Source: Methylobacter sp. (GTDB lineage Bacteria; Pseudomonadota; Gammaproteobacteria; Methylococcales; Methylomonadaceae). From it: DNA of 35,817 nt. A program made the translations under genes and the position numbers. Below are positions 4,560 through 35,817 of this stretch, one piece after another. Location of the stretch: assembly GCF_004322395.1 (NCBI RefSeq), contig NZ_SCTW01000155.1, positions 1 through 35,817 on the forward strand, read 5' to 3'. The stretch's first letter is position 1. The number at the start of each line of letters is the position of its first letter. The notes beneath the pieces are model-generated. The model had not been told where the DNA came from, did not search any database, and was given only the letters and a program-made list of their open reading frames with translations.

Positions 4560-4578
4560 TCGCCAATGGCGAATCTTA

Positions 4579-5504
4579 TTAAAAGAAGTGGCTGGTTTTA
4601 TTATCAAAATTATTTTTTGAAGACTTAATACTCTGCTGATGTACATGCAAAAACTCTTGATTAGATTTGTAGCTAGCGGCGCCGCTACCCGTCTTGGCGA
4701 CCCACTCGTTCGGGTTATGGTGGGCGGGAAGTCTTCGCTGAGGTACTGGGTGTAGTCGATGTACCAGCCGTAGTGCGGCGTCGGTGTCAAGGGTGATGGT
4801 GGAGGTAGCGCCTTCACCTTTGGTTTCGCCAACTGCGGAGCCTGTGAGGTTATCAAAAGTCACAGCAGGGCTGACGTAGTCGTAACCAGCCAAACCCGCT
4901 GGCAAGTTTAGGGTGTAAGTAAGTTGGGCTGGAGAGGTACTGGAAGGTTGAGATATTTTCCAATAGGGCTTTGCACAGCGCTCGACATCGTCAATTCTTT
5001 CACCGTTTTCGCCAATTGCGTAGGTTGGCTCACCGGAGAGTCCAACCGACATGGTGTAGTAAATCTGTACGGTAATATCGCCCGTTTTGGCTTCCATCAC
5101 AAAATAGTCGTAATCGCCGTAATCGACATCCGGGATATATTGGTAATGATTCCGTGTGTAATCAATGGCTTCAGAGTATTTCTGAACTAGGCGACCATGT
5201 TTGGGTTGCTCAATAATTCGAACACTAATATCGGTTCGTTCGCTACTGTCTGGATTAATATTAAGATCTTGATTCAAATATTGAAAACTATACGTTCCTG
5301 CATCCAAAGTTGGATAAATATTAGCTGGCCCGTTGATTGCGCTACATACGCCCAATTTATGAAGTACAACTTCCCTCCCCATTTGGACTGTCTGGGTATT
5401 GGCCGCCAGATAAATCGCTGGTTGTTCAATGGGATGCGTTGATAGATCAGGAATCCACATGGTAAATTCTCCTTCTTTGAAATTAAGCGCTTTTTGAGCC
5501 TGCA
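4579..5504 (-). pseudogene. Decayed fragment of a giant-protein paralogue: Cys-pair domain plus truncated matrixin-like protease domain
   Basis: The translation aligns with the giant gene's segment at about 11560-10620: shared motifs include PKHG, GVC, (V/Y)YY, DYVSPAVTFDNLTGSAVGE and NPNEWVAK. It preserves the two cysteines of that domain (GVC and ERC, against GVC and KYC). Compared with the giant copy it lacks 2 bases near 4772 and 1 base near 4716, so about 20 codons are read out of frame (DTDAALRLVHRL instead of DTDAAGHGWYID) before the frame is restored at NPNEW. Homology ends at about 4680, just before where HEYGH should be, so the protease is certainly inactive. An ATG at 5460 with AAGGAG eight bases upstream could start a product of about 293 residues. 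That Shine-Dalgarno falls in codons homologous to giant-gene codons and may be fortuitous. A short expressed relic is possible. Confidence 0.75.
4600..4628 (-). promoter_or_regulatory. Possible sigma-70-type promoter for the exporter genes
   Basis: On the minus strand a GATAAT hexamer (4600-4605) lies 17 bp downstream of TTAAGT (4623-4628), about 40 bp before the proposed TolC-gene ATG in very AT-rich sequence. The -35 match is weak. An 8-bp perfect inverted repeat with a 1-base loop (attcgcca/tggcgaat, 4559-4575) sits directly before the ATG and could affect translation. Confidence 0.3.
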
Positions 5505-6323: not shown

Positions 6324-6601
6324 CGGTTAACCTGTTCACTATGGCGATTGAATGCACGGCTTAAAGCTGCATTGGGTTCAGCAGGTTCATCAAGAGCAGC
6401 AAGAAAAGCTTGAAAGTCTTCGGGCTTTAAAGTGATCGACTCATGCTCTTGAATCACATGTTCTGCAGAAGCTAAAGCATGAGAGAGTACAAATTCAGAA
6501 ATGCTCACATGCGCGTAGGCGGCTGCCTTATTAAGCATCTGCCGGGCATGATTATCACAGCGTATGTTAAGACGGTTTTCCTTGATGGTTACTGTGTTCA
6601 T
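6320..6601 (-). CDS. DUF1778 (TacA-like) ribbon-helix-helix antitoxin
   Basis: The 93-residue protein has an N-terminal RHH-like DNA-binding segment (RLNIRCDNHARQMLNKAA, 10-27; SISEFVLSHAL, 33-43) and a C-terminal arm (LKPEDFQAFLAALDEP, 58-73) of the kind that wraps the GNAT toxin in DUF1778 antitoxins. The ATG has GGAGA at 6608-6612 a few bases upstream. It is the first gene of a two-gene operon with the overlapping toxin gene. By analogy the complex probably represses its own promoter. Confidence 0.88.
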   Translation of the reverse strand: MNTVTIKENRLNIRCDNHARQMLNKAAAYAHVSISEFVLSHALASAEHVIQEHESITLKPEDFQAFLAALDEPAEPNAALSRAFNRHSEQVNR

Positions 6602-6992: not shown

Positions 6993-8545
6993 TCACTTGA
7001 TTTTCACTACCAAGCCCGTCAACTCTGCTAGGCTTTGCTCCTTGGGCTGGTCGGTCAATAACTCCGCAACCCAATCGTCTTTTTTCAGCTTACCTAGGTT
7101 CGGTACTTGGCCTGTCCAATCGATTTGGTCGGTCGTCAAGCTGCTGTGCCGGTTAATGGGGATCGTACCTTGCCGGTCGTCATGCTGTTGACTGTCATCG
7201 TTATGGGCAGACTGCACGATGATCGTAGCGCCCCGGTGCTCGTCGTAGCCTTGGTAGCCTTTGTGCTCACTATGTTCGAAACCATGATGCCAACCGTGAT
7301 CATGATGGTCTTCGTCGTGGTCTTTTTTAGGCAGTACGGTCAAGGTGATGCTGGCGGTAGTACTGAGCTGGCCGTCGGAAACCGTGTAAGTGAAGGTCTC
7401 GGTGCCCGAGAATTCGCGCTTCGGCGTGTAAGTGTAAGTGCCGTCGGCGTTTTTGCTCAGTTTGCCGTGCTTGGGTTGGGTGAAACTCAAGCTCAGTACG
7501 TCGCCATCGACATCGCCGATCAGACCGGCGAAGTCGATGATGACGCTGCCGCCTTCGTTCAGCGTGTAGCTGGCGCTGTTGGCGACCGGAGCATCATTGA
7601 CCGGCAACACAGTGACCTGGAGGGAAGCTTCGACGGTCGCCTGGGACCGGTTGGCTTGCTCGGTGGCGGTGGCGATGACTCTCAGGGCGAATTGGCCGTT
7701 AAAATCTTGGGGCGGCAGGATCGCGAGCCTACCCCAATTCCAGCCGGTCACATCGGTCATGTCGCTACCCAGGCTGGCGGTGAAACGGTTGACGCCGTCG
7801 GTCAAGGTGGCACCGACCGGAATCGCGCCGATGGCCAAGGTCAAGGTTTCGGAACCGTCGGTGTCCTGTAACAGGGCGCCGATCGCGGACAATGGTATCG
7901 CGCCGTCCTCGAAGCCGGTGTTGGCCTGAAGGGTTTCGTTCAAGGCGATGTTGTCGATCATCATGCCGCCGTGGGCTTGGCCGGAATCGGCTTCGCTGAC
8001 GATGCGGATGGTCTGCGGGCCGCCGCTGCCGATGAAGCTAAAGCTGCGAGTTTGCCAGTTCAGCGCGCTGCTTGGGCTGATGCTGTCGTCCATGCCGATC
8101 TTGACGCCGTCGACATAAATGCCGATCCGGGTCGTGTCGGCGCTGTAGCCCGGATGGCCGGCCAGGTCGAGGCTCAGGGTGTAGATCGCGCCGGCGATCG
8201 TGTCGATGCGACGTTCGATGCCCCGTGTTTCATGGCCTTCGCCGTTGGTGTTGCCAAGTTCCAGCCAGTTACCGCTGCCGCTGGCCGCGTAAACGGTCCG
8301 GCGTTGACCTTGGGCATCCTTGAGGCTGTCGCCGTGGCTCCACACGATGAAGCGGCTGTTGCCGTTGTCGTGCCGGTCGTGTCCGTCCTGTTCGTGACAG
8401 TCATCATGATCTTTATGATGATCGTGCTCTGGCCGGGCGACTACTGTCCAACCTTCCAGTTCGCGTTGTTCGATATGAGCCGCCTCGTGGCTACGGTTCC
8501 TGATGCTGTCCCAATCGGTGCGGAAGCGTTCTAGGCTGGCGCCGG
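6993..8545 (-). other. C-terminal region: His/Asp-rich jelly roll, final cadherin-like repeats and tail (giant protein)
   Basis: A DUF642-like module (ELEGWTVVARP, then SGNWLELGNTNGEGHETRG) contains a His/Asp-rich insert at 8358-8432. Two cadherin/VCBS-like repeats follow to about 7335. A second His/Asp/Glu-rich stretch is encoded at 7229-7328. The tail ends with DDWVAELLTDQ and SLAELTGLVVKIK, a candidate type I secretion signal. Confidence 0.6.
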
Positions 8546-11500
8546 GTACGTCGCTCAGCACTAAGGTAGGCGCGTCGGCGACGGCGTTGACGATCAGACG
8601 GACGGTGGCGATGCCGGAGTCGAGGCCTGTCCTGAGCGGAGTCGAAGGATCGCCGTCGTTCAGTTGGTAGCTGAAGCTATCTTCGCCGCTCCAGTTTGCC
8701 AGCGGCGTATAGCTGACGGTGTTGTCAGCGTTGACTACCAACAGGCCGTGCAACGGTTGGCTGACGATCACCAGGTTCAGCGCGGTGCTGTCGATGTCGA
8801 CATCGTTGGCCATAATGGCGAGCTGAATGCTGCGGTCTTCATCCAGCGTCGCGCTGTCGTCCAAGGCGACCGGGGCGTCGTTGACGGCAGTGAGGGTCAG
8901 GCGCACGATGGCCGGGCCGGAATCCAGCCGGCCGTCGCTGACTGAATAGCTGAAGCTATCCTCGCCGTTGTAGTCGTCTACCGGCAGGTAGGTATAACTG
9001 CCGTCGTCGTTCTTGATCAATTGACCGTGTTGAGGCTCGCCTACCGTCACGGTTAGCGGGTCACCGTCAACATCGCTGGCGCTACCTTGCAAGTTCAACG
9101 TGATGCGGCCGTCTTCGAGCAGGGTCGCGGCAATCGGGCTAACTACAGGGGCGTCGTTGACCGGCACGATGGTCAACAGCACAGTAGCGACGGCGGAATC
9201 CAGTCCTGTCCTGAGCGGAGTCGAAGGGTCGCCGTCGTTGACTTTATAGGTAAAGCTGTCGGTGCCGTTGTAGTTGGCGTCCGGGATATAGGTGAAACTG
9301 CCATCGGCGGCGACGCTGACTTGGCCGTGCTGGGGACCAGCGACTACGCTGGCCTGTAACGCGGTACTGTCGATGTCGGCGGCCGCGGCCAGCAAGCTGC
9401 CGGTCAGCGCAGTGTCTTCATCGGTGCTCAGGCTTTGGTCGCCTGCGGTCGGCGCATCGTTAACCGGCGTAACGGTCAAGGTCACGGTAGCCAGGTTGGA
9501 ATCGACCCGGCCGTCGCTCAGTTTGTAGGTGAAAGTATCCTCGCCGTACCAATCGGATGCCGGGGTGAAGCTGAAGCTGCCATCGGCGTTGACGGAGACC
9601 TGGCCGTGGGCCGGGCCGTCGACGATGACCGGCACAAAACCCGGTTGGAGAGAGTTGAGGTCGTTGCCCAGCGCGTCGATGACGGTTGGGGTGTCTTCGG
9701 CAAGCGTGACGTTGTCATCGGCAGTTTGCGGCACGCCCAGACGCAGGTCGCGCACGGTGATGCGGCTGTTGCTCGCCTCGCTGCCCTGGCCGAAGCCGAT
9801 CAGGTCGAAAGACAGGTTGACCGCAGTGCCGGCGGCAATGCCGCCAAGATCAGCAAGATAAGTCCGGCTGCCGTCGGCGTTGTCGATCCGGGTGATGCCG
9901 GAGGCTTTGTGTTCCTCGCCGTTGGTCTGAAGGTTCAGGAAGGCGTCGTTGCGACTCAAGCCGGTCGCGCCGAACAGCGACACGCCGGTGTTGGCGTCGA
10001 GCAAGGCCACCTCAAACGCGTCGTCGGGGCCGTCGGCCTGGTCGCCCAGTGCAGCAGAGATCGTGAACGACAGGAAGCGGTCGTGTTCGCCGAGCATAAA
10101 GGCTTGGTTCAGGCGGGTTTGGCTGCCAGAAACTTCGCTGAATACCGCCTCGCCTCCCGTCTGTCCTGAGCCTATCAAAGGATTGACAACGACGTTGCCG
10201 GTGGTTTCCCAGCCATCGGCGCTTTCCAGTTTGCCGTTGACCAGGGCCGGATTGGCGGCGATGTCGTATTGCACTGGCGCGTTGGCGGATAGGCGGCTGC
10301 CCCTATTAGTATTCCGGCGCGTCAGGCCAAGGAAGGAGATGCCGAAACCGGCACCCAGCGGCAAGGTCGGGATCGGCGATGGCGCGGTGCCGTTGTCGGC
10401 CAGCGCCGCGCTATCCGATCCGGCCAAGTTTTGCTTGGCTTCGGCCACCAGTTGCGCCATCAGCGCCAACTCGTCGGACGACGGCAACCGCCGCATACCG
10501 GGAGTTAACGTGGTGCCCATGAAGTCATGGGCATCGGCACTGTGCGCCAAGCCTAAGGCATGACCGTATTCGTGCAACAGCACCGACAGCATGTCCATTT
10601 TGCCAGCCGCCGCGCTACCCTCCTTGGCGACCCATTCGTTAGGGTTACTGGTCGGCAGGAAGTCTTCGTTCAGGTACGGGGTGTAGTCGATGTACCAGCC
10701 GTGACCGGCGGCGTCGGTGTCGAGGGTTATAGTGGCGGCTGCGCCCTCGCCTTTTGCTTCGCCGACGGCGGCGCCAGTAAGATTGGCGAAAGTTACCGCA
10801 GGAGTGAGATAATCATAAACTGTAAAAGCGGTGGGTAGACTGAGAGAATAGGTACCATCAGTGATGTTGGCTATTGGGCTGTCTAGGGTAGTTATATTCG
10901 GCATTCCGTCGGAGAAATTGGATATTTGCCATATCGTCTTTGGACAATATTTTTTGTAACCATTTTTAATATCACTCCTAGTTAATTCAGTCGTTACTAC
11001 TTTTAGGTAATAAACTACCTTTACTTTGTAATCACCCATTTTTACTAAAAACACTACTTTGTCGGGACCTACATAGCCGCTATCAGGCTTATAACCATAA
11101 ACATCATCGGAAATAAATCGATCCAAAACTGGTTCTAAATCAAAGTTACCCGTGTCCCTATTCTGTAGCTTTATAGTGCCATGCTTGGGTAGTTCTAATA
11201 GCTGAATTTCAGCCGTTTCTACTACTTTAGCCCAAGCATCATAATCAGTTTCCATGGCTAGCGGAGAATGCTTATAACTAAATGCGGCACCTGCTTCAGT
11301 AATAGTTGAAAGATAATAAAACCCATAATGCGTTAGGTTATTTCTATCCAATCCTAAACTATTTTTCCCATCAAATTGGTTATGTATATTGCTAGAAGCC
11401 GGCAAACAAACACCTACTGTGCCGTACAACTGGTCTGGGTTGTTTTTTGCATTTGAGGTCGCTACCAGCACTGTAGCTGCTTGTGTAGGTAATGTATCCA

Positions 11501-14500
11501 CATAGTTGGTATCTACTAGCAACATGTCAATCTCTCCTGTTTGAATATCAAAATCACTCAGCAAATCGTTTAAACTCTGATTTGTGGAGAGTTCATTCTC
11601 CGTCATATTAGTTTCAGCCGCCAATAAATGACGCGGTTCTATTGGCTGTAGTATGCGGCTGTTTAATGCGATGCCGAATTTTGTGTTGTATCCATCTTTA
11701 TTCGTAGCCTGAACTCCTACTATTTTAAGTAGGTCGCCCATGTTGCCATAGGCGTTTTGATCCTTTATAGACATAAGTATGTTGTTCCAATCGTTAGTCC
11801 TCTCCCTTTTTTCTTGATTGTATTCTGAATTAGGATCATTCTGCTGCGCAGGCTTCCCAGCCCCTCTGATCGTTATGTATGTCTTTTGAAAATCTGCATC
11901 GACAGGGTTATTTACATCCATCCTGTTATTTAAATGATGACTGTTCCAGTACAAAGCGCTAGTTCTAGCCGCCACGTTTTTGTCATTTGAAACATCTAAA
12001 TAATTTGTTTCAAGATCATAGGTACCTGCACCATAGGCAGCATTTAGGTTAACAGTCGCTGTGCGGTAATTATCTCTCCAAGTAAGCTGTATAAGCCCTC
12101 TACCCTTATAGTTTGCGCCATCTTGGATGCTTGTATTTCCATTAGTTGAAATGCCTTTATTTATCCTGTCAGTATAATAATCAAACCCAGCTTGAGCATC
12201 ACTTAAGTATTCAGTAGTTGACCTTAGCCCAAATGACTCTGCATTTATATTCGCCATAAAAGCAGCAATACGGTTTGTCGTATTAAGGCCAAACTTTTTC
12301 ATGGCATCATTAAGTGGCTGCACCCAATCGGATACAAAACCTCTTGAATAACCTATTATTGCCGCTAAAGAGTCCGCTGTTAATTGTGAACCTAAGCTAC
12401 CCTGTTTAGAACCTAACCCTCCTAACAGTAAGTTTTCATTATCAATTAATCCACCAGTTTGACCATTCCCAAAAAGTGCTTGTTGAATCTTTGCTGCATT
12501 GGCATTTACAATCATGGCAAGCTGATTATTTTCATCAAGCGAACCATTATTCGAAACACTATCATTCATCGTTGCTGCATAAACTGCTAAAAAGTCTTTT
12601 AGGGCTTGGTCTTGCAGATTTGATTCAGCATTACCAGATGAAGATGCTCCTGAAGCTGGTGCTCGGTTGGTGTATTGCAATAGATCAGCCAATTGCTGCG
12701 CAACACCAGAATCCCACTTACCATTGCTTAGGCTTGAAAGTATCCCTTTTTGTTCTAGCACATATTTAAGCTTTTGCAACGGCGTAGCACCTGTGGCATT
12801 GCTTGCCGTAACACTTAGCAAATCCACACTATTAATATCAGATAAGCCCAATAGCCACTCGTTACCATCTATCCCGCTTTGATTGCCAGTTTCTCCGCCA
12901 GAAATATAGTTTGGATTGATGCCAAGCTCTAGCATCACCCCTAACTTACCGCTACCAGCGAATTGCAACGGTTGTGTCCTGCCTTGTGTTTGAGCAGTTT
13001 TAGCCGACAAAGCCATTAGGTCAAACACCCAACTCGTGCCAAACACATGCCCGTTAGTAGAAAGATCGCCAGTTTGTTGATTGATCCAGGCGGTCACTCC
13101 TAATTTAGCATTTGTTGCTGCATAAGTGCTGCCTGTATTTGCAAAAAACTGTATCCAATGTGGTGCGTTGTAAGCGTTAAGCCAATTTTGCGTAAGTGCA
13201 GTTTGCGTTCTTGCAGCAATATCGCTACCACTATCCAGATGTTCAATAATGCCATCTATGCCGTAGTTATCCGTTTCACTACTTAGGCCTGCCGCTAGCC
13301 ATGCCTGTTGTTTAGCTTTTCCAATTGCAATATCTAACCCATTAGTTGCTGCCATCTTGATAACTTTAGCCCTGAAATCATCCAGTTGTTGTACTGATCC
13401 CCCTGTTCTAGTTCCCGTCTCAGTTATCACAGGCGACAACGCTTCAAAACTACCAGGCACCTCTTCAAAAACAGGTATACCACTACTTGATAATGTAATT
13501 CTGTACTGAACCTTAACCTGTATTGAACTAACATTAATAGTAATTCCATACTTAGTAGCTGAAGCTGAACCCGTAGCTGTTCCTTCGCCAATTTTTGAAG
13601 TGTAGCGCACCACTGTCTCAAACAGATTGAGCGCCTGTTGCTCATTATTATCAAACTTACCATCAACCTTTATCTCTTGAACAGGCTTGCCAGTGGTAGC
13701 ATCAACGGAAGCATACCCTAGATATTTAAGCCTTTGCTCAACGCGAGCTACGTCGAGTAAATCCGCGCTTGCCGTATCAATTCCCCCTTTCAGCAAAAAT
13801 TGCGAATAACCAGGATTGTCCAACGGCCTGTCACCAACAAAGGCATTGGCGGTAGAGGCATAATCTTTAGCGGTGACAAATACGATACCCTTACTGTCTT
13901 GCGGCTGGGTTGATACAGCAGAATTTGGATTGGATTCATCTTTGAAGTGAAAAATAAGTTGGGCAAACTTATCGGCCAGGGTTTGCCCCGCGCGTAGTTT
14001 TTCTATATCAGAAGGTATCCCCGAGTTTTTCTCATCTGTGATATTAGGTATAAAAAATAATATGCCTGTCTCTTTAAAGTTGGCATCTATGGTACTTTGA
14101 ACATTGCTCGCATCTGCCGATTGGCGAGAAATAATAGTTGAACTGGCTGATGAAGAATTTCCATTTGTAACCAGCAATTTTAGTGCAGGACTTTCTCCAG
14201 GAGCTTTTCCTGCAAAGTATTCCAACTGTTGTGGATCTAAGGAAAAGTCTGACAGTTCCAGCATTCTAGCAGTAAGGAATCCTTTATCCAGTAAACTCAG
14301 CTTAGCCAAAGGCGTTTTAACGACAGTTTCACTAAATATTCCTTCACTCAATAACAATTGTCTGGCGGCCTGTTCTTTCAAATCGATACCGATCACATCG
14401 CCCATATTGCCTTCCGCGTTAGCAAATATCCATTCAGGATTAAACGCGGTGCCTAGCGTTCCTTTAAATTCACTGCCGGGGCTGGCGATGCTTTGTTCGG

Positions 14501-17500: not shown

Positions 17501-20500
17501 TGGCGCTAACCAGGTCGCGGGCATCGTCGACAGTGATCGCAATCGCCCCGACTTTGCCCAGTGGGCTAAGATCCAGGGTATTAAGAGTTAGGTAGTCGCC
17601 GGAACCGGTGGTTAAATCAACGTTTTGTTCGTCGGCAAAATCACCGACAACATGTATGCGCACGCTTTGGCCGGTTTGCATGGCGATCAGCTCGGCCAGG
17701 TTGGTGATGCGGATTGCGGTCAGTGCCGCACCGCTGACGTTCATGTTCAACTCAATCGGCTCGCCTGCGGCATAGCCGTCATCGGCTTGCAGGGTAATCG
17801 TGGCCTGGCCTGCGTAACCCGCTTCCGGGGTAAAGATCAGGCTGTTGCCGTCCTGGCTGAGTTTTGCGCTGCCGTGGGTGGTGTTGAGCACGCGCAGGAA
17901 CAGGCTGTCGCCCTCGTTATCTTGGGCAATGGCGCTAACGCTGATTTTTGTGGCAAGGTCGGTGTGGGTTTTACCTTGCGCTACGTCGGCAACGGCGGTC
18001 GGAGCCAGGTTGGCTTTAAAGCCGATGTTGGCGTACAGCAGTTGGCGGTCGACGGCGTTGACTTGACCATCGCTGTTGAGATCGCCTGCGGGGTTGTTGT
18101 TTTGTGCTTGTTGCCAAGCGGCGCTATCTGCACCATCGACTAAACCGTCGCGGTTCAGGTCGCCCGCGACACTGATGCGCACGTTGGCTGCGTCCGTGCC
18201 GGTCAAGCGGATCAATTTGGCGCCCGCTTCGGTCACGCGCACCAGCAGGGTGTTCTTACCATTGATGGTGGCATTGCCGATCAGCGTGGCGCCGGTGACT
18301 TCGACGGTTGCGCCTTCCGGCAATTCGGTTTCCAGCGCATAAATGATGGCGCCTTGACCGCCGGGCGTGTGCACGGTGGAAGCCAGTTCGGATGCGCGGA
18401 CATTGAACGCCAATGTGGTGTTACCGGCTAGTTCGCCGGTCCACTGATTGGCGCTGCTGTCGCCCAGCCAGTTAACCGCTGCGCCAAGCTTGGCGGTGAT
18501 GGTATCGGTCAGCAGATTGCCTTGCTCGTCGTAGGCAATCGGCGTGCCCAAATCGTTACCGTTGAGGTTGCGTACCAGTTCCAAACGGCCTTGGGCATCG
18601 TAACGATAGACGGTGCTGATAATTTCGCCTTGGGCATCGGGGCCGGTAACGCGGCTGATGCGGCCTTGGCTGTCGCGCTGGATGTCCACGCGCTGGCTGC
18701 TGTCGCCGTTGACGGCGGCGATACCGGCATCGGACACCAGCCATTGCGCGCCGTCGCTGAAGGTGACTTGGGCGATTTTGCCCTGTGCATCCAGTTCGTA
18801 GCGGCTACCGTCGGGCGCAATCAGGGTGTATGAGCTCGGCACCCACGGCAAACCTGTTGTTTGGTCGTAGAGATGGCTGCCTTGGCGCATCAGATTTTCT
18901 GCGGCATTGGCGACCCCGCTGGTATGCGCTTGCAGTTGCCAGCCTTGGGAGTCGGTAAACTCGGGATGAAAGACTTGCGGCGCACCGGGGTCTTGTCCCA
19001 GCCGTTCGCTACGGGTGTTCAGCGTAAAGCTCAGGCTGAGCATATTGACATCGGCATCCGACAGGTTTTCCGGGATTTGCAGCCAGACACGCGCGCCTTC
19101 TTGCCATGCAGCGGTGGCGCCGCTTGCGGTGGTAGCAGGCTGGTCGGTAGTCAGTCCGGTATCGAGCAGAGCTATCTGCCAGTTGCCAAAATCGCCGGTC
19201 TGTTGATTATTGGCTGTGGTGTCCAGGCTGCGGTTAAAGGCCAAGGCGTGGCCGGCAAGCAGATAGTTGTTGTCGGTGACCGTTAGCCTGCCCACGTCTT
19301 TTTGCGCGGTGTCGATGATCAGCCGGGCTTCAATTTCGGTGGTGCGGCCGGTCAGGTCCCACGCTGAAAGGCGCAGTTGGTAAACGCCGTTGGCGAACCG
19401 GGCCGGATCTATGTTGATCAGGTCGAGCTGTTGATCGATGTCAATGGCGGCCTCGGCATGCTCGGCAAGCGTTTGCCAGGCATCGCTGCCGGCCGGGGCG
19501 ATTTGCAGTTTGTAGCCCATCAATTGCTGATCGGCCAGGCCCGCTGTCAAGACAGTCATTTGGTTGATTTCGACCGGCCATGTGGCGACGGTGGCACCGC
19601 TCAGTTGTCCCGTCCAGGCCAACAGCGGCGCTGTGGTATCGGCTGGGTTCTTGATGCGGACGGTGTGGGTTTGGCTGCTGGCAAAGCCGTCGCGATCGGT
19701 GGCGGTGACCCGCAGTTCAATCAAACCCGGCTGGGTAGGCACAAACTTCATGCGCCCCGCGTTGTCCAGCGCGACCGGTTGCCAGGTGTCGCCCAAGCCG
19801 CTGCCGCGCACTTCGGCGACGATGCCGGCAATACCGCTCCAGGCATCGGCCCTGACGCTGGCGATGACGGTTTGACCGGGCAAGGCCGGTGTGCTCGGCG
19901 TTGTGGAAACAGTGATTTTGGGTTGGTTGGCCGAGGCATCGGCCACGACGCGCAGAGTAAAAGTTCTGGACACGGTGTTTTTGCCGTCGGAGGCTTGGGC
20001 GGTCACGGTAAAGTCGCCGATCTGCCCGGGGCCGGGCACCCAATTGAGGCGGCGCGTTTCTGCATCGTAACTGGCGCCTTCCGGCAAGTTGGCAAAGCTG
20101 ATCGCCAACGCGGCGGTTTGCTCGGCACCGTCAGGGTCGGTTGCGGTGATGCCATTGCTGTTGACAGCCGCGCCCAGTTCAACCGGCAGGCTTAAGGCCT
20201 GCCCGATAACAGCCGCATGGTTGGTGACGGTCAGTTGCGGCAACCGGTTGCTGTCGAATACCCGCACTTGCACGGTTTGCGTGGTTGTAGCGCTGCCGTC
20301 GGTGGCCCGGAAGGTAAAGCTGTACGGATGGCTGGTTTCGGTCGCGTTATTGACGATGCTTTGATCAGGCGTCCATTCGAAATAGCCGGTGGCGCTGTCG
20401 AAGGCTACGCCGGACGGCGTGTTGCTGTCGTAAACCAGGCTCATGTTGACGGCGTCGCTGTCGGCATCGACGGCGCGCATCGTGAAATTAACGGTCTGGC

Positions 20501-23500
20501 CTTCGTTGACAAGTTGCAACGGCATCGGCAACAGACGAGGCGTTTGGTTGACGTTGGCAACAGCCACTTCAAAGCTGCGCTCGAACTGTGCCGCGCCGTC
20601 GCTGCCTCGGACGGTAAAACGCCACTGGCCGGCTGTGCCGGTGTTGCTGTCTTGCGCTGCAAACAGGTCCGGCGTCCAATGCAGTACGGCAAGATTGCCG
20701 TTAACTACGTCCAGCGTCATGCCGCGCGGCAGGCCGGTCGCGGCCCAGTCGATCAGGTCGGCATCGGTATCGCGGCCGAACAGTTCTATGGTCAGCGGCA
20801 CGCCTTCGGAGGCGTTGAGTTGAATCGGGGCGCTTGCACCGGTATCGGTAATTTGCGAACCGTTGACTTGTACGCCCAATACTTCAGGCGCGGCATTGGC
20901 GGCGCGCACAACGACGCGCAAGGTGTGCTTGCTGACGTTGGGCACCGGGTTGTCAGGTTGCACATAGCCTGCATTTTCAGGCGCAAGGCCGCTGTCGGTG
21001 ACCACCAGTTCAATATCGCGGGAGCCGATGTCATCGGCGCTTGGTGTCCAGGCTAGGGTGGCGTGGCCGTACTGGATGGCTTCTTGTATTTCGGCGCCCA
21101 CGGGGAGGCCGTTGGCAGTCCAGGTCAGGGCATCCTGATCCATGTCGTTCGCCAACAACGCCACGCTCAACGGCTGGCCGACAATCGCAACGACTTGGCG
21201 CGGCGCGGTAATGACCGGCGCTTCGGTTTCGCTACGCACGGTCAGCACAAAGCTCTTGGCTTGGGTCAGCACTTGGTTGATATTGCCGTCACCGTTATCC
21301 TGAGCAACTACAGTAATCGTGTAGTCGCCGCGGTCATTGGCGCCCGGCGCAAAGCGGATCAGGCCGGAAGCTGTCCCATCACTGGACGGATTTTGGCTGT
21401 AGGTGGCGAATCTGGGTAAGCCCAACAGGCTGACCTGGACGGGATTGCCGTCTGCATCAACTGCCGAAACCGGAATTTCAAGCACGCTACCTTTATCGAC
21501 GAACGCATTGCTGATGTCGCCGATGTCCGGAGCGCGGTTGGCGTTGCCGACGACAATCGGCAGCACCAACTGGCTGACGGCGGGCACACCGGAAGCCTGC
21601 CCTGAGCTTGTCGAAGGGTCGCCGTCATCGGTTGCCGTTACGGTGATGCTGTAAGTGCCTGCTTGGCTGAAACCCGGCTTCCATAGAATCTCCAAAGTTT
21701 CGGGGTCAAAGGTCGCGCCTTCCGGCAAGCCCGCTACCTGATAGCTGACCGTTGCCGCAGTGGTTTCAGGGCCGGTCGCCGTAGCGCCGGGCTGAAAACG
21801 GATACGCGGTTCGAAATCCGGGTTATCGGGATCATAAGCGAAGACGCTGATTTGCAGCGGCTGGCCTTCAAGGATATTCCAAGTTTCGGCCGCATCGAAT
21901 ACCGGCGCGCCGTTGGCGTTCAGCACGTTTAAGGCTATGTCCTTAGTGACTGATGTGATAACCGGATCGCTGCCGGGCGTATGCCAGACTGCGGTCAAGG
22001 TGACCGGGATACGGAAGGTGCCATGCTGGTTATAATCGGGCGTCCATTCAAGCCAGCCGGTCTCGGTGTTCAGTTTGGCCCCGCCGGGCAGCCACGGCGC
22101 GCTGTAGGTCAGCGTCACTGTGGTTCCGTCAGCCAGCGCTTCGCTGCCGGCGACATGACCGGCCAATTGCAGGGCGTACCTATCCCCTTCCCTCAGCGTT
22201 TGCAGGACAACCGGCGCTAAAACAGGCTTAGCAAAACCTTGCTCTACGGTCAGGTTGAACTGGCGGCTGACAATGGTTTTGCCGTCGCTGGCGACCACGG
22301 TGATGTTTTGATAGACGCCGGCTTGATCGTAACCCGGCGTCCAGCTCAATATCCCGCTGGCGGCGTCGAACACTGCGCCCGCAGGCAAATTGCGGACAAT
22401 CAGGGTCAGCGCATCGCCATCTGCATCGGCGGCGACGATCGGCAGGCTGAGCGATTCGCCCTCTTTCAGGGTAATATTGTTGATAGCATCAACTACAGGC
22501 GCATTGTTGCCACCGATGACGGGCAGTTGGAACAGACGCGTGGCGACACCGCCTCGACTGTCCTGCACGCGCACGACAATCTCGTTGTTGGCCGCATCCA
22601 GTGCCGAAGGCGTCCAATTCAGTGTCGCCACTGAATGATAACCGTCATCCGCCGGCAGGATTTCAGCCGGCGGCGTCAACGTGACTCCCGCAGGCGCTTG
22701 CACCAACTCCCAGTAAAATAATGTGCCGTCCGGGTCGATGGCTTCGATCTGCCCGGTCCATGCCTGGCCTGCCGTCGCAGCATTTAAGGTATCGGCATCC
22801 ATGATGCCGGCTACGCTTAATGATGGAGGCAGGTTAGACTGGGGCACGGCGTACACGCCATGGCCCAGATTGAATTTAACCAGGTCCGCCATGCCGGCGC
22901 GGGTAGCAAAAATGCTCGCCGGAATAACGCTGATCGTTTGGCCGGTGATCGTCGCGCCTACGGCAAATTTTCCGCCGCTTGCCGCTAAGGCAGAGCTGAG
23001 ATCAATGGTCCACAAATCCGATTGGTCGCCGCCGCCAATGCTGGCGCTGTCGATCGCATCGCCGAAATAACGGCCCGGATCAAGCAGTAAAGTCAGCGGG
23101 CCTTTAAGGTCATCCGTACCGATGTTGGTCAGACTGACATCGTAGCTGACTGCGCCGGTCGCACGGTCGGCGCGGGTGTTGCTGAACTCAAGCCGCACCT
23201 GGCTGGTCATGTCGAACAATGCCGTGAAGGTGCTGACATAGCCTTGTTCCAGACGGATTTCGGCGCTGTTTTGCAGAGTGCTGCTGATGTTGAGTTGGTA
23301 CTGGCCCGCTTCGAGTCCTTGCACATCAATCCAGGCGGTTTTGGTCGCGGCATCCCAGCGGATGTTTTGCGGCGTGATCACGGCTCCGGCATTGGCGCCC
23401 AATACGGTTAAGGTAAAGTTGGCCGGATTGAGTACGTTGGCAAGATCCGCCGTTTCCATTCCGGGTCCGCCGGTCCACATATCCTGATCGAAGACGACGC

Positions 23501-26500: not shown

Positions 26501-29500
26501 TGCCGTAAGCTTGCGTGTTCCCTGCACTGTCCAGCGTTACGCCATCCGGTTGGCCGCCGATGTTGCTGCCGAAAATCACATACGGGAGATTCATGCCGCC
26601 CAGCACATCAGTGTTATAGCCCATTTCCGGCGCACCCACGTCGAAACGGACGTAGGGCGTATCGACGTTGGTCAGGCTCTGTAATGAAACGCTGTAGTTT
26701 GCATTATCGCCCGGATTGACGGTGTGCGACCCGCCGATGCCGATAGTGACATCGGCTTCTATACCGCGCTCGACAAGATAGCGCATCGCATCGGTGACTT
26801 GCTGGCCGTCGGGGTTAATCACGCTGACGTCGTACAAGCCGTGAGGCGCATCGCGTAGGTCGAATATCGCACGGATGCGCGTCGCATCGAGCACTTGCCA
26901 ACGCGTCGGCTCAACCTCGAAAACACCCGGACGCGATAATTTGACCAGCGCTCCGGCCTTGAAGTGGGAACCGTAAATATCCAAGGTCACCCAGCGGTGA
27001 TTGTCGTCGCCGGTACCGCCTTGATCCGGTGTCACTTTGGTAATGGAAAGCGGCAGCAAATCCGCTCTTATTGTGACCGGCGTATCGGCATCGCCTTGGT
27101 TGGACTTGACCAGGACATAGTAATCGCCGGCCTGAGTGCTGGGGATGAACGCTTGTTGGTCGGCCGATAGCGGGTTAGTGTAAGACGCATCGAACAGGTA
27201 AGTGGTCGGCACGTCGCCATAACGGATATAAATCTCGTTTGCGCCCTCTTCCGCTGAGGAATCGAGCAGCACGCGCAAGGTTTCGCCGGCGGCGACGCTG
27301 ACTTTGTACAAGCGGGTTTGCTTGGGGCTCAGAGTGATTTCCAACGGACTGGCTACGCTTAATTCGGGCACTTGCACCTGCAAGGTTGGGGCTGAAGCAG
27401 TGCGGTTGTTGGCTTCTTGCGGCGGCAAATTCAGGCCGGTGGCGGTGTAGGTTATCTTGCCCTCGAACACTTCATTGTAAAGATCGGGCCTGACTATAAC
27501 GCGCCAATTGCCCTCTTTGAGCGGCGGCAGTTTGGCTTTCAGGCTGGCGCTGTAGCTGGCGTTGGCATTCAGGCCGCCGTTATGATCGACTTTACCGATC
27601 AGGATGTCGCCCAAATCCCAACTGTTGTCGCTGGACAGGTAAACCGCATCGGTCCAGCGTCCGTAAGCGGGATTGATGGAATCGTTAGTGATGGTGTAAT
27701 CAACCTGAATGTCGTCGCCGACCTTTGCATTGGCAGGCAATATGACATTGCCGGCGATGAGATCCGCGGGCGGCGGCGTTTCTACCAAAATCGGCTGTAT
27801 TGCAGCGGTCGCGTTATTTTGCTCCTTGCCGAATTCGCGCACTTTGCCGTTTTCGCCAGCACCCCAGGCCCGCGCAGGGTCAGTAATGACAAAAACATAG
27901 AATGGGCCTTCGAGATTTCGCGGCGCGGTGACGGTCAAGCTGCCACCGTAGTTGCCGCCGGCCGACAGTCCGCCTGAGTGACTGACATAGCCGATATAAC
28001 TGTCTTTATTAATATCAAGGAAGCGGTCTTTGGACAGGTAAACCAGGTCGTTCCAGCTGCTTTGATCGCTCGGCGTATCGCCGCCCGCATTGATGACTTC
28101 ATAGCTCATAACAAAGTTCTGCCCGGCCACTACGGACACCGGAGCAGTGACTGAAGCCACTTGCAGATCCGGCGGGGTCGCCAGGGTGATCGGCAAGCTG
28201 ATAGCTAAGACGTTATTGCCCTCATCCTGGAATTCCAGCACCCCGCCGCTGCCGCCCATGTCCCTGACCACATCAAGGTCTTCCCGGACGGTGCTTAATT
28301 CGATTTTATAATTATCCTTGTAAACGTTGGTGTCGGCCTTAACGATCAGGTGAAAATCTCCGCTGATCGATTCGGGGATATTGACTACCGCCGAATAGGT
28401 ATAGGACTCGCCCGGTTTTAGGTATTTGGGTTTATTATTTTCATAGAAAGAGACGGATTTAACCCGCAAAGCATGCTCCGGGCTTTGAGCAAGAGCGCTG
28501 TCGACCAAAGGATAGTCGCTGGAATCCAATGATGCATCGCGTGACAGGTAAAGTCCGTCGAACCAGTTATTGGTACGCGTTTCCCGAGTGCCTTGATTGC
28601 TGACTGTCCAGGTGATGGTAACCTGCTCGCCTGAAGACGGATTGGGGTTAGACACGACGATGCTGTCGACTCTCAGGTCCGGCTCGCGGTAAGTAATATT
28701 CAGCGCACCGCGCATAATATTGTTGGCATTAAGGCCGGCCTCGTAGACAGTGCCTGCCCGGTAGGTGCCGTTAACATTTCCACCCGCATAAAAACCCAAT
28801 GCGTTAGCGTTTAGCCCGGACAGGTACTCGCCTTTTGCTTTGCGATTACGTGCGTCCTCAGGGGTATCCTGATTGTCGGCAATGACATAAATATAATAAT
28901 CGCCATCGGTGCCGGGCGGCAGTTTGACTTTTGTTGAAGTGGTGTAGCTTCCGCCTGCCGCCAAGCCTTGAACATTCGAGTGCTCAAAAACGCCCAGCAA
29001 AGTCGCGCGCTCAGGAATAAAAGACGGATCTTTACTGATATAAACGGCGTCGTTCCAGCTCTTGGTTCCGGCCCAAACCGCATCGCCAAGGTTATTGACC
29101 GTCCAGGTAATGGTGGTGTCTTCGCCGGAAAAGTTTTCCGGCTGTGTGCGTATATCGGTGACTTGCAAATCAGCCGGGCGATCGATAACGACCGATAAGT
29201 CCGACCCAGCGTTATTGTTTTCATTGGTTTCGGCAACTTGCGAGCCAACGGCATCCGTTCTGACAATCAGGTAACGCCCTTTAACCGATGGCGCAAGCTG
29301 AACAGTCTGGCTGACGCTGTACTGCTCGTTATGGCCCAAGCTGCGCGCTTGCGTGTATCTGCCGATTTCCCAGACTTCCTTTGCCGCAGCAAAATCAGGG
29401 TTGTCGGTTATATAAACCACATCCGTCCAATTCCCGGCAAAAATATCGCCATGATTTTGTACGCTGTAGTTGAAGCTATAGCTGCCGCCTGCATCGGCGA

Positions 29501-32500
29501 CATCTTGCCCTGAAACTTCACTCACAACCAGATCCGGCGGAGTAATGCCCAACACGCTGATCGCGCGGGCTTTGTAGTTGTTATTGTCGACGGCTGTCGG
29601 GTCGTCGACATTGATATTGGTCGCTAAGGTATCCTCAAGAATGACGTTATAAGTATCGCTCCATACAGTAATGAAATACTCGCCCGACATGATATTGTCC
29701 GGAATTTTCACCTGCGCTGTACCCAGGTAATCCTGTCCTACGGCGAGGTTGCCGACATGGGTAAACGATCCGAGTAATATGTCGCCTTTGTAGGCACCCG
29801 GCTTGAGTTTGTTCCGCGCCAGCCAAATGCTGTCGGTCCAGCTATTGACTGAAGCGGCCTCGCCCCGCGTTGTCTCGCTGCCTTGATTGCCGACTTTGTA
29901 GCGGACCTCAATACTGGAACCATGCACGGCTTGGTCCGGCGCTACGACATCGCTGGTGACCAAGTCGCCGAAAGGTACGGGATCGACATAAAAATGTGTG
30001 GCCCTGACGTTGTTGGTTTCATTCGGATACTCGTCAACATTGTTGTTACCGTCGGCAACTACAATCAGGTAGGCGTCGCCGCGATATGAGATCGGAATAT
30101 CGACCATGCCGGTTTCGTTGGCATAGCTCTCGCTGGTTGCCAACGCCGAACCATTCTCAAACTGCCCGACCAGCCTGTCGTCGGCGCTCAGGTTACCGTC
30201 GAGCGACAGGTAGACTTTATCGGTCCATCGCCCGGTAGCCGCAGCCGGCCCTTGGTTGCTGATGGTGTAACGGATACCGGCCGCCGTGCCGGCGGTGACA
30301 TGCTCCGGCGCTATAACTGAAGTTACCCGCAAATCCGGACGGTCGTTAAGGCTGAGTTGGATTGTGCCCACGGAATCCAAAACATTATTATCTCTTGCCG
30401 CGCCATATTCGTAGACCTGATTGCCGCTCTTGCCGAGGTTGGCGTTAGAGATCACCTTAATGCGGTACAAGCCCTCTATTTTAGCGGGCAAGCGCAGTTG
30501 TTCGGTACGGGTATAACGAATCCCCGATTCCAGGTTGCGATCGTAGGTAAAGCTGCCCAGCGTAACGGCCGGGCCGGTAGTTCCGACCGGCACCAGCAAT
30601 ACCGTATCCACCCATAAGCCTGAGGCGGCGGCATCGCCCTGATTGACCACCGTCCAGGTCACGTCGATCAAGCCGCCTTCGTTAGCGGCAGAAGGCAAGG
30701 TAATGCTTTCGACGAGCAAATCCGGCGATGGGGACAGTTCGACAGGAATCGATACCGATCTGCCGGTATTGTTTTTATCGTAAATGAACTCGAACGGCCC
30801 GCCGGTACTGACATTAACGTAAAAATTACCCACAATGCCTTCGGGCAGCAGTACATTGATGCTGCGTGTATAGCGGCCATCGACTGCGAGTTTGCCGATA
30901 TGATTGGCAGCGCCGAAGTCGGCAACGATGCCGGTACCGTCGGCATTGCGGCTCAGCCAAACTTTATCGCTCCAACTGTCGATGTTGGTAATGCCTATGC
31001 CGTTATTGACCACTTCCCAGCTGATGCTCAGCGGCCTGCCGCTGGCTGCGGTGCCTTGCGTGGTGACGGATTCCACCTGTAAATCGGCATAGGGAATCGG
31101 CATCACGTCCAGGTTTTGAGGTGCTTGCAAGACGTTATTGCTCTCAAGGTAATTCTCAAAAACGCCGCTTCGGGCATCGCTGACAACGAACAACTTATAA
31201 CTGCCCGTCGTTCCTGGCCCCAACAAAATCCGTTCACTTCGGCTGTAGGATTCGCCGGACGCAACAGCGCCATCATGAAGATATTCGCCGATCACAACAT
31301 CATCGGAATTTCCAAAGGTACTGTCTTTGGACAGCACCACGCGATCCATCCAGGTGGAAGTTTTACCGGCGCCTGTGCCTTGGTTGGTAACGGTCCAAGT
31401 TATATCAACGGGCGCTGGATCATCAATCACCCGCGTTGGCGCAAGAATTTCAGTGACTGTTAAATCGGCGTAAGCGGCTAAATCGATAGTCAGAGCCGAC
31501 GACAAACGATTATTGTCTTGGAGACGATCATCAAAGATCTTTTTGGCATCGGCAACAACGACCACTTCGTATTCGCCGTTCCATTCAAGCGGAATTAAAA
31601 AGTCGGCGGCAGCGGTATAGGTTTCGCCGGTTGCCAATTGACCGTTTCGGGCTATTTCGGCGACTTTGGTTAAGACGCCGTTTTTGGACAGGAATACTTG
31701 GTCAACCCAGCTGCCTAAAGCATTGCTGCCGTTGTTTACTACCGTCCACTCCAGATGAACGCTTGATCCTGATTCGATCAGGCTGGGACCGGTCAATCCG
31801 GTCACCGCAAGATCGATGCGCGCAACACGGACGGTTGCGGCCGAACTCGCCGCGTTGTTGTCTTCGGCAGTCCGCTCGTAAATCGTATTATCGGTATCGG
31901 TTTTTACCACCCAACGGAAATCGCCCTCAGCAAATCCCGCTGGCAATGTAAACGTTACAGTTCTGGTTTCACTGGTTCCCGCTTGGAGGGTATCCAGATA
32001 GAAGCTGTTGGCAACTTCCTGCAAGCCGCCGGTTCCGGTATCCAGGTAGATCCGGTCGCGCCAGGGACCTGCCGCTACGGTATTCCCCAAGTTAGAAATG
32101 GCGTAGCTGACTGTTGCCTGTTCGCCAGGACGAAGCATCGAAGGGCCGTTCACATCACCGACACTTAAGTCGGCGACCGGCGCTAAACTGATACTCAGTT
32201 TGGCAACGCTAGCGCCGATATTGTTCGCGGTATAACCGTTTTCGGTCACGGTGCGGTTGGTGTTGGTATCAACCAGGATGTAATAGTCGCCAATCAAGTC
32301 TCTCGGCAAAGTCAGCGTGGCTTTGCCGAGATAACCTTGTCCGGCCGTTATCTGGCCGGCATGGGTAATCGAACCGGACAGGATAATATCATCGCTGCTC
32401 AAACTGGCATCGCTGGATAACACCACGCGGTCGTTCCATAACGCGAGATCGGTTTTGGCATTACCGTTGTTGTTGACCTCCCAGGTGATCAGGATGTTTT

Positions 32501-35500
32501 CGCCGCTTAATGCGCTTTCCGGCGCAGTCACATTAACAACAGTCAGATCGGCGTAAGGAGTCTGTACGTCTATTGCCGATACCAAGCTGGTATTGTCGGC
32601 ACGCGTATCCGGCTCCAATACTTCCAAACCGCTATCGGATTTAACCGCCAAGTAATATCTGCCGGCAGGTTTATAGGGCAAATTGACGGAAACCGATTTT
32701 GTATAGGACTCGCCCGTTTTAAGCGCACCGTTATGACGGTAAGTGCCAATCACCACGTCATCACCATTACCGATGACGCTGTCTGTGCTGATGATTATCT
32801 GGTCATTCCAAGCGGCCGGCGTGTCAAGGTTGCCGTTATTGGCAACGCTCCAACTGACATTGATGGCTTCTCCGGCTACGCCGCTGACCGGTGCGGTAAA
32901 ATTCGCCACCTGCAAATCCGCGTAAGGAACAGCTAAGGATTGGGTCTGGATATTGGCGCTATTGTTGGAGCTTGCAGTATTGGTAGGGTTAGTTTCAAAT
33001 AATGCGCTTTGCCCCGCCCCATTTTGGTTGGTGACCACACGAATTTCGATTTCGCCTACGCCGCGCAAGCCATCGGGAAGCCGGAAATTAAAGCTGCGAT
33101 TCCTGAACTCGCCCGAAGCAATCATCCCCGCTCCCGCTTGGGTAATATCGTAAGCAATGCTGGTATTAAGCAGTTGTTCGCCTGTGGTTTTATTGGTGAT
33201 AACAATCCGCTCATTAAACCCGGCAGGCGCAACCGACTGACCTTCGTTCCAAGTCTCCCATGCTAAAGCGATCAATCCGCCAGCATAGATCGTTGTTTGG
33301 TCTATGTGTAGGTTCTTGACCAATAAGTCGGGGCCGGAAGCGATAGTAGTTATGCTCGTGTTATTGGTTTCGGCGGTATCTTGCAGGTTGTTTTCAAAGA
33401 TGTCCGCGTTGTAGTCGGTGCCGATCACAAACTCAAACTGACCGGCCGCATTGACTCCTGTAGGCCAAGTCAAAGTATAAGCGCGGTCGACAAAACCACC
33501 TGCCGCCAAGGTGCCGTCGACTGAAGGGATATAGGGCAAATCTGCACTGGCAACCAGTTGACCGGTCGACAGGTTCCTTACCTGCAAATGGTCTTTCCAT
33601 GCTTTGGTAATATCGGCATCGCCCGTGTTGCTGACCCGCCAGTTCAACGTCACCGCAGTGCCTGGCGCCCAGGCGCCAGGCGGTTCAATATTTAACGAAC
33701 CCAATTTTAAATCGGGATAAGCGGACAATGTTGCCTGGATGGTGGTGATGGCGGCATTGTTTTGTTCGCCGGTCGTGCCGGTTTCGGCGACACTGTTAGC
33801 AACGTCCGCCGTCACTTGAAAAGACAAATCCCCCGAGCCTCTGTTGCCTTCCGGCAAGGTAATGGTGATTTGTCGGTTGCGTCCGGCTCCCGCTTGCAAA
33901 GGCGCTGTGCCGATGTCATCGTAATTGACCAAGTAATTGGCGATGATTTCGTTAGTCGACACATTGCGGACTATTACCCGATCTTGCCACGCCGATACAG
34001 TTTCTTGGTTGCCGTTATTAAAGGTCTCCCAGCTCAATACGACCTGCCCGCCCGATTTTAGTTGCGTCTCAACCGGAGCAACCGCCAAGTTGCGGACGAT
34101 TAAATCAGGTCCCGGCTCGCTTCCCAAACCGGTAATCATGACTTTGGCGATTTTAGGCACCTGCACGGCGCTAAATTTATAATTGGTGGTGCCCGTTCTG
34201 AAAAGGTCCCCTTCCACCAATAATGTATAAATGCCGGTTTGCACTAAGAGTATCGGGCCTTTATCAAAGTCAAAGTTCATATAACTGGTATCGAATACGA
34301 CTTGGCCGTAGGGATCCAACAAACGCCAATAGGTGGTGTTTGATAGCGTTTGGCAGTCAAAATAATATTGCTCGCCAACTGTGGCGTTAAACCGGTAAAT
34401 ATCCGTCTCATTAGCCGGGTTAAGCTGGCCGCTGATCACAGTGCCCGGGGTAATGACCGTTCCTTGGACTATATCCAATAAGCGGAAACTGTAGTTGCCG
34501 ACCATGGCGCCATTGCCGTCGATAATCAGCGTGTAGTCCCCGGCGACCAGGTCATAAATGGCCGAGCCATAGAGATTACCTGAATCGCTGCTGGTGAAAT
34601 CCATTGCTGAGACTACCGCCCCTCGGGGACCAATCAATGTCCAATTGGTAGCGGTATTACTCAAGGCATCGAAATACAGCTGTTTGGCTTCGCTCAGGCT
34701 AAAACTGTAGAAGTCGCGCTGCCCGACATGGGCAATGCTGCCGTTAACGGTATCGCCGACCGTGAGCGGGTATTGCTCATCGGTGATTTTCTGCACTGTG
34801 AAGCTGTAATTGCTGGTTGCGCCCGCATCAGAAATAGAGCCTTCTATCAGCAAGGTATACGCACCGGTTTGAGTCAAGGCCTGTGGTTCCTGGTCGCTAT
34901 CGAAACGAACTGGTCCAAACACGACTTGACCATGGGGATCTAACAGCCGCCAATAGGGCCAATAATTGCCTGAAAAGCTTTTAGAATCGAAATAAAACCG
35001 TTCACCGGCTATGACATTAAATTGGTACAGGTCGGTCTCATTGGCCGGGCTGAGCTGGCCGCTGACCGCGATCCCCGGTGTCACTGGCGTGGTTTGAGCG
35101 ACGTCCAAGACGCGGAAGCTGTAGTTGCCGACCATGTCGGCATTGCCGTCAATGGTCAGCGTGTAGTCGCCGGCGACCAGGTCATAAATGGCTGAACCAT
35201 TAGGATAATTTGAGTCGCTCTTGGTGAAATCCATTGCTGAGACTACCGTCCCTCTAGGACCTATCAGTGTCCAGTTGAAGCTACTATTGTTCGTCAATGA
35301 GTCGAAGTAAAGCTGCTTGGCCTCGCCCAGGCTAAAGCTGTAAAAGTCGCGCTGTCCGGCATGGGCGATGCTGCCGGTAACGGTATCGCCCATGGTGAGC
35401 GGGTACTGCTCGTCAGTGACTTTCTGCACATTAAAGCTGTAATTACTGGTTGCTCCTATATTATAGATTCGGCCTTCGATCAGCAGGGTATACGCACCGG

Positions 35501-35817: not shown

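Follow-up and report, generated by a model that had tools for sequence, protein, structure and literature searches.

A LEPR-XLL giant gene of Methylobacter with endolysin-like and matrixin-like domains and its putative export locus

Results

Organization of the locus

The analyzed stretch of DNA, hereafter the window, is the entire contig C3 (35,817 bp) of the genome of the methane-oxidising Methylobacter sp. (4.59 Mb in 157 contigs). It contains a 9,607-codon stop-free frame on the minus strand, with a stop codon at 6993–6995 and a 5' end open at the contig edge, followed by genes for a TolC-type channel, a HlyD-type adaptor and an M50 peptidase (Table 1). Since the window is a complete contig, the open edge is an assembly end.

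Table 1. Coordinates of the features described (window positions unless a locus is named)
Feature	Position	Strand	Basis
LEPR-XLL giant gene: last 9,607 codons plus stop; 5' end off contig	6993..35816	-	ORF reading, codon-position conservation
Tandem PPC-like repeats, approx. aa 1-570, delimited by eye; run on into contig C146	34107..35816	-	direct reading
CARDB stalk, 13 stretches, outer limits approximate	27387..34106	-	Pfam PF07705, 3.6e-96
Putative Ig/cadherin-like stalk, limits approximate	19917..22889	-	Pfam He_PIG, Big_9, Cadherin_5
Dockerin-like stretch, slightly under cut-off	18030..18167	-	PF00404, 22.3 bits vs 22.9
Possible PG_binding_1-like module	13437..13796	-	4 of 8 members match, best E 0.022
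GH19 endolysin-like domain; presumed catalytic Glu aa 7860 and 7869	11697..12419	-	alignment, profile
Internal EPRHLL, like the LEPR-XLL core (may be chance)	11622..11639	-	motif match
Matrixin (M10); zinc motif HEYGHALGLAH at 10542-10574	10299..10898	-	Pfam, alignment
Tandem-95/cadherin-like repeats C-terminal of matrixin, limits approximate	7347..9728	-	Pfam
Conserved C-terminal tail	6996..7376	-	68% identical in L008; L012/G007 endings alike by eye
TolC-type outer-membrane channel; start codon probably lies downstream of 4856	3186..4856	-	Pfam OEP, 2.8e-48
HlyD-type adaptor with GAF domain	1318..3189	-	domain search
M50 peptidase with PqqD-like N-terminal domain; HlyD C-terminal part off contig	1..1146	-	domain search
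DUF3467 gene, plasmid locus L200	11872-12153		annotation
DUF3467 gene, plasmid locus L201	11753-12073		annotation
DUF3467 gene, plasmid locus L202	7641-7985		annotation
DUF3467 gene, plasmid locus L203	11753-12094		annotation

The original prediction, made from the window alone, was of a single gene of more than 9,600 codons still open at the edge, and comparison with relatives bears this out. Over 22 kb shared with genome G004, mismatches at codon positions 1/2/3 numbered 730/496/2323, and in the comparison with G001 554/394/1906; the underlying alignments were not codon-aware (gaps in multiples of three, 20 of 69 and 17 of 29, respectively), and the aligned block 30982–35817 of the turned contig, which lies outside the giant, was excluded from the counts. 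A similar third-position bias was seen in the comparison with G003. Such a bias over 22 kb indicates a translated frame subject to purifying selection, and by its pattern of substitution the giant frame is confirmed as a real gene evolving as coding sequence.

The homologous frame of Methylobacter sp. C13 (G003) is at least 11,770 codons long, without interruption, and is open at a contig edge. The homologue in Betaproteobacteria bacterium HGW-Betaproteobacteria-4 (G007; PHCH01000003.1) spans 12,710 codons in a single frame; its LEPR motif lies at 94 and its zinc motif at 11317. Of the loci read, this is the only one shown to be unbroken between LEPR motif and stop codon. The giant of G004 has two frame breaks.

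Two regions of the giant, namely aa ~4211 onward (by eye) and the stretch preceding the matrixin, recur as broken, incomplete copies at 4579–5804 of the window on the minus strand. A similar degenerate remnant lies at the same place in G004, and in G007 there is no room for one.

The N-terminal part of the giant

Elsewhere in the genome, the PPC-like repeats of the C3 edge were matched on contig C146 only, with 54–79% identity; the matches extend to the last base of C146, in an orientation fitting C3. The gene start on C146 carries FEALEPRVLLSG, a LEPR-XLL motif. The search for such a motif at the N-terminus, suggested in the original prediction, thus gave a match above cut-off (NF012209, 31.7 bits vs 17), the sole LEPR match of the genome at E<=0.01, and LEPR-XLL membership extends to the window only on condition that C146 and C3 are joined.

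The junction is backed by synteny and by colinearity with G004, according to which C146 ends about 0.4 kb short of the start of C3; an exact overlap between the two contig ends was sought and none was found. In G004 a single contig carries, in order, a transketolase-like gene (the label is our own interpretation), HlyD, the LEPR giant, a degenerate copy, TolC, HlyD-GAF, M50 and a SecA-like gene. Judged by these sequence relationships, the N-terminus of the giant is very probably located on C146, and the whole protein is estimated, by colinearity with the relative, at about 11,600 residues. A single frame break was found in C146, near 17,424–17,476, and no Sec signal peptide is visible by eye at the gene start on this contig.

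Domains of the giant protein

Stalk repeats had been predicted for the same gene, and PPC-like, CARDB and Ig/cadherin-like stretches were indeed found, together with one RHS repeat and one Big_2 match in Pfam. An RTX array is absent: a single GGxGxD-type match was found across 9,607 aa, and an RTX adhesin was rejected on this ground. The two hydrolase domains had been placed near the C-terminus. Both lie in the C-terminal part, about 1,100–1,800 residues from the end, but some 1,100 residues, made up of tandem-95/cadherin-like repeats and a conserved tail, still follow the matrixin.

In Pfam, the GH19-like domain of the window remained below the cut-off (18.3 and 23.5 bits vs 25.5), and single-sequence matches at E<=0.1 were obtained for five of nine members. 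The GH19 and matrixin alignments comprised the window and eight related loci, three of which (L003–L005) come from one MAG. The GH19 domains are 29–38% identical to that of the window, and Glu 7860, Glu 7869 and a GRG motif are invariant in all nine; we take the glutamate pair to be the GH19 catalytic residues. A profile built from the nine sequences matched five solved chains at 2e-27 to 1.4e-19: the putative lytic enzyme 9eoi (2e-27), the endolysin 9ms7 (6e-26), the glycoside hydrolase 8p8e (1e-24) and the endolysins 9ms6 and 4ok7 (1e-19), all of which we assume to belong to GH19. Both glutamates and the GRG motif are aligned in each of the five. A sixth chain, named amidase, followed at 3.6e-16, and entries named chitinase appeared from 2e-8 onward. 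By profile similarity, the domain is nearest to endolysins, not to chitinases, and this kinship makes peptidoglycan its likeliest substrate.

A peptidoglycan-binding module preceding the GH19 domain is no more than suggested by a subthreshold Pfam match (14.9 bits vs a cut-off of 23, E 0.03); a search of the PDB gave no match at E<=1. An AlphaFold model of the PG-binding and GH19 stretch, computed from nine rows, had a mean pLDDT of 47 and did not resolve the GH19 fold.

The matrixin exceeded the Pfam cut-off of 24 for PF00413, with 29.3 bits in the half protein and 34.9 bits in the genome search. Its motif HEYGHALGLAH occupies aa 8415–8425; the zinc ligands (HExxHxxGxxH) and the following Met are invariant in all nine sequences, and the stretch is 56–81% identical between the window and its eight relatives. 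The matrixin profile gave a weak match to matrix metalloproteinases (9e-5). Thus, the prediction of an intact matrixin-like protease agrees with our data. Rejection of both catalytic domains by profile searches had been named as what would refute the original reading; by the similarity evidence both domains stand.

Several observations concern the mobility of this region. A stretch after the matrixin, PSPIPTLPLGAGFGISFLGLTRRN (window 10311–10382, minus strand), resembles an internalised C-terminal sorting signal, which we liken to IPTL-CTERM. Together with the EPRHLL before the module, it suggests that the GH19-matrixin module may formerly have existed as an independent secreted protein. Separate fragments of the matrixin/GH19 side were found in Methylobacter genomes at L009:3095–4666, L010:6948–8318 and, in the window's own genome, C12:22104–22970. 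The L010 fragment is fused behind what we read as an integrase fragment, hinting at module shuffling. In the MAG Candidatus Methylobacter oryzae the GH19-matrixin region was found on three different contigs (L003, L004, L005), so several paralogous giants are probably present there.

Export genes and the SecA-like ATPase

The order HlyD, LEPR giant, TolC, HlyD/GAF, M50/PqqD/HlyD, SecA-like is conserved in G004 and G007. In the window's genome, the C-terminal half of the SecA-like gene, 95% identical to that of G004, is located at the edge of contig C44. The window's M50 protein scored 22.7 bits for PqqD (cut-off 23.4). No ABC ATPase was found among the five long ORFs flanking the giant in the window.

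A toxin-antitoxin-like pair (5826–6601, minus strand), consisting of a TacA1 antitoxin (91 bits) and a GNAT acetyltransferase, follows the giant in the window, ahead of the export genes. In G296, a SapC-family gene (252 bits; L092:9600–10493) lies between the LEPR giant and HlyD-GAF.

SecA_DEAD and PP_bind (preprotein crosslinking) domains were recognized in all 34 SecA-like proteins analyzed (L098, L118, L124 and L131 were omitted from the motif alignment), and at least 90% of them retain the Walker A and helicase motifs. The wing/scaffold and SEC-C domains, both present in the genome's own housekeeping SecA, were found in none of the 34 at E<=0.01; they are therefore named SecA-like rather than SecA. 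A tree of 52 rows separated the 36 accessory from the 16 housekeeping sequences at a single branch with 100/100 support; row L060, named ACC, is a housekeeping SecA and was grouped accordingly, rows L185 and L199 are the same gene, and accessory rows L123 and L126 have very long branches.

Distribution of the M50 gene and the LEPR-XLL motif

The M50 protein was searched in 398 Pseudomonadota genomes (E<=1e-20), with at most two candidates scored per genome, so that the counts are lower bounds: at least 89 genomes contained a match, at 134 places. The 45 best hits (>=244 bits, mostly full length) were designated class 1 and the other 89 class 2, a division drawn after inspection of the M50 list. 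We fetched the neighbourhoods of 40 class-1 hits (all except the window's own, two in G098, G094:C59 and G194:C139) and, as a control, of 20 class-2 hits.

A SecA-like gene adjoins M50 in 36 of the 40 class-1 loci; two of these genes are distant (L123, L126), two are split in two frames and one is cut. It is missing from L111 (G195) and L114 (G341), the L113 locus ends at a contig edge, and in L128 (G019) a very weak SecA-like match lies behind M50. None was found in the 20 class-2 loci read of the 89 class-2 hits. A motif scan for ABC ATPases was negative in all 40 class-1 stretches (3–20 kb); the same scan revealed an ABC-ATPase-like frame, anywhere in the stretch, in five of the 20 class-2 stretches.

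In 39 M50 proteins aligned (L098, L113, L118 and L131, with fused, cut or overlong frames, were omitted), HExxH and the second N/D motif, the marks of a site-2-type protease, are invariant. The PqqD-like domain was recognized in just 19 of the 39 (E<=0.01), so leader recognition by it is a guess.

An independent search revealed LEPR-XLL in 54 of the 398 genomes, 52 of which are among the 89 M50 genomes; the motif occurs in two of the 309 genomes without a listed M50 match (Fisher p 3e-38, which, because the genomes are related, overstates the number of independent events). Class-1 M50 is present in 35 of the 54 LEPR genomes versus 2 of the 344 others. Of 82 LEPR hits, 37 lie on the same contig as an M50 hit; the strands agree in 30 of these and are opposite in 7 (including G280 and G152). 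For the remaining 45 no M50 hit is listed on the contig. In 26 cases the frame lies on the M50 strand with its estimated end within 12 kb of M50, and 13 of these end 1.6–2.7 kb before it. The longest listed LEPR-XLL frame comprises 19,427 codons (G070:C115:112865, minus strand).

Several class-2 M50 genes also adjoin LEPR giants, e.g., in G231, G343, G091, G202, G112 and G114, and the G231 locus, read fully, contains OEP and two HlyD genes without a SecA-like gene. These loci weaken a model that relies on the SecA-like protein alone. The EPRxLL pattern, which cannot detect giants that begin beyond the stretch, gave no LEPR frame in the 20 control stretches. Thus, LEPR giants have the M50/HlyD set in common, and the SecA-like gene belongs only to the larger class, class 1.

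The M50 protein was also detected by tblastn in 15 of 72,556 plasmids, and five records were opened. A Pontibrevibacter nitratireducens plasmid carries an annotated LEPR-XLL protein (31.8 kb), DUF3467, an adaptor, PqqD-M50, a SecA-like gene and an adaptor. Plasmid pMSC49a of Methylosinus sp. C49 carries a 26.5-kb giant starting with TLEPRVLL, then the same set and TolC, and a Pseudosulfitobacter plasmid a 38.2-kb giant with the variant FEPRVLL, then DUF3467, adaptor, M50 and SecA-like genes. These three are complete plasmids with the same order and a motif-bearing giant. A Pseudohalocynthiibacter plasmid has DUF3467, adaptor, M50 and SecA-like genes, with no giant listed in the stretch, and a Rhizobium johnstonii plasmid shows, from the record start, an adaptor, M50 and SecA-like sequence in two frames. 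Across four plasmid records the SecA-like gene is annotated as DEAD/DEAH box helicase, prepilin peptidase, hypothetical protein or translocase; with such inconsistent annotation the system is easily overlooked.

In four alphaproteobacterial plasmids a DUF3467-annotated gene, confirmed by Pfam in two, directly precedes the adaptor (Table 1). Its product is possibly a further component of the exporter.

Discussion

The gene, its domains, their conserved catalytic-type residues, the gene neighbourhood and the co-occurrence of LEPR and M50 are direct observations. From them we infer a reading that we hold to be fairly probable: the LEPR-XLL giant is a long Ig/cadherin/CARDB stalk with GH19 and matrixin domains, exported by its own locus, and its hydrolases act outside the cell. 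In the order of events that we envisage, the M50 protein would recognize the cytoplasmic N-terminal LEPR-XLL leader through its PqqD-like domain and may also cleave this leader; the dedicated SecA-like ATPase would push the giant chain; and HlyD-type adaptors and TolC would form a tunnel to the outside. There, the stalk, bound to the surface or released, would place both hydrolases on nearby cell walls and proteins, their presumptive targets.

The hydrolases might, however, serve the producer itself rather than act as weapons, the matrixin releasing or processing the giant and the GH19 domain opening the producer's own wall while the giant is exported or anchored. More distant giants of these loci also have a matrixin-like module close to their C-terminus, in a state that could suit a structural or self-acting part: its zinc motif is intact in G168 (L096), broken (HExxN) in G296 (L092), and in G028 (L093) the zinc ligands are kept and the glycine is replaced. 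The broken and altered motifs imply that the role of the matrixin need not be catalytic everywhere. Since the GH19 glutamate pair is invariant despite the low identity of these domains, which looks like selection for an enzyme, we regard such a self-directed function as rather unlikely and retain outward-acting hydrolases as the preferred reading.

Another question is what drives the chain. If housekeeping Sec or another general ATPase moved the giant, the M50, HlyD and TolC proteins would process it and pass it on, and the SecA-like protein would be an optional regulator or helper. Class-2 loci with OEP, HlyD and M50-HlyD beside LEPR giants and without a SecA-like gene (in full for G231) fit this arrangement. 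The retention of the SecA-like gene in nearly all class-1 loci and the conservation of its Walker A and helicase motifs speak against it, and we consider it improbable.

The original prediction had assumed type I export, with the C-terminus leaving the cell first. This part of it was not supported: the giant has no RTX array, no ABC ATPase was detected in the 40 class-1 stretches, and the motif shared by the giants is N-terminal. Giant Ig-repeat adhesins are classic clients of type I secretion, and one can imagine an ordinary system of this kind in which an unlinked ABC transporter works with the local HlyD and TolC, with the SecA-like and M50 proteins as bystanders. TolC and HlyD do belong to the locus, the ABC ATPase scan covered the fetched stretches only, and the giant's C-terminal tail is conserved, so that a C-terminal signal is also possible. 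Nevertheless, M50 and often the SecA-like gene adjoin LEPR giants in many families, and together with the lone RTX-type nonapeptide and the negative ABC ATPase scan this makes C-terminus-first secretion quite improbable. It is also highly improbable that the long frame arose by chimeric assembly or belongs to a gene in decay, in spite of the frame breaks (one in C146, two in G004) and the degenerate partial copies downstream, because its changes are third-position-biased across 22 kb, on which ground a chimera was rejected, and an unbroken 12,710-codon homologue exists.

Returning to export by a dedicated locus, we propose an exporter dedicated to LEPR-XLL giants that probably takes the N-terminus first, the hydrolases being its cargo. 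A broader hypothesis is offered tentatively, as a possibility: LEPR-XLL giants would be substrates of an unnamed Gram-negative secretion system, gated by an M50/PqqD/HlyD protease that recognizes the leader and with TolC as the exit. In its larger branch it would be powered by a stripped-down SecA paralogue. The system would thread chains, some as long as about 19,000 residues, beginning at the N-terminus; the cargo here would be a peptidoglycan hydrolase and a protease on a megadalton stalk.

The locus bears on the transport of single polypeptides of more than 1 MDa across two bacterial membranes. In open-licence papers, preprints excluded, we found none that assigns an exporter to LEPR-XLL giants and none that links SecA with TolC, HlyD, M50, PqqD or giants. 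In many Pseudomonadota, LEPR giants are encoded next to what seems to be an undescribed export machine, often with a SecA-like motor and with no ABC transporter found. What is new here is the export context of these giants, which points to a dedicated exporter. The link between LEPR-XLL and the exporter is testable genetically, and a cultured carrier, Methylosinus sp. C49, holds both the set and a giant on pMSC49a.

Comparison with known systems

LEPR-XLL is named in a transcript list (PMC9611531), and a giant-gene preprint of West-Roberts and colleagues is mentioned in PMC12057145. According to a passage of PMC10868602, a Vibrio giant of ~8,000 aa combines LEPR-XLL with C-terminal RTX toxin and serralysin domains. 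The passage names no export locus. To its extent, the LEPR-XLL giants (NF012209, LEPR-8K), to which the Vibrio protein belongs, and the giant of the window share the N-terminal motif, a length of thousands of residues and a metalloprotease near the C-terminus, and they differ in that the latter has a GH19 endolysin-type domain and a matrixin in place of serralysin, and no RTX. Both metalloproteases are presumably of the M10 kind.

With GH19-type endolysins (4ok7, 9eoi, 9ms7, 8p8e, 9ms6) the giant shares the Glu pair 9 residues apart and GRG..Q.T; the endolysins are free lysins, whereas the domain described here is built into a giant protein.

Type I and tripartite exporters use a TolC channel and HlyD-type adaptors, as found in the window locus, and the lack of a visible Sec signal peptide at the gene start on C146, judged by eye, is a further likeness. 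They rely on an ABC ATPase, which was not found in the loci described here; these contain the SecA-like and M50/PqqD/HlyD proteins instead. The SecA-like protein has the same DEAD, preprotein-crosslinking and P-loop domains as SecA and SecA2 and is a separate paralogue beside the housekeeping SecA. It differs from them in its size (about 665 aa), in having no wing/scaffold or SEC-C match, in staying under the cut-offs of all listed NCBIfam models for SecA and SecA2 and in its linkage to TolC/HlyD/M50.

Finally, the daptide and YydH/LiaK M50 maturation proteases (NF041824, NF058609) are related to the M50 protein in their PqqD/M50-type sequence (142–143 and 37–38 bits, respectively). The M50 protein of the window is far under their cut-offs (300 and 225) and has a C-terminal HlyD part, and its neighbours are giant proteins rather than small peptides.
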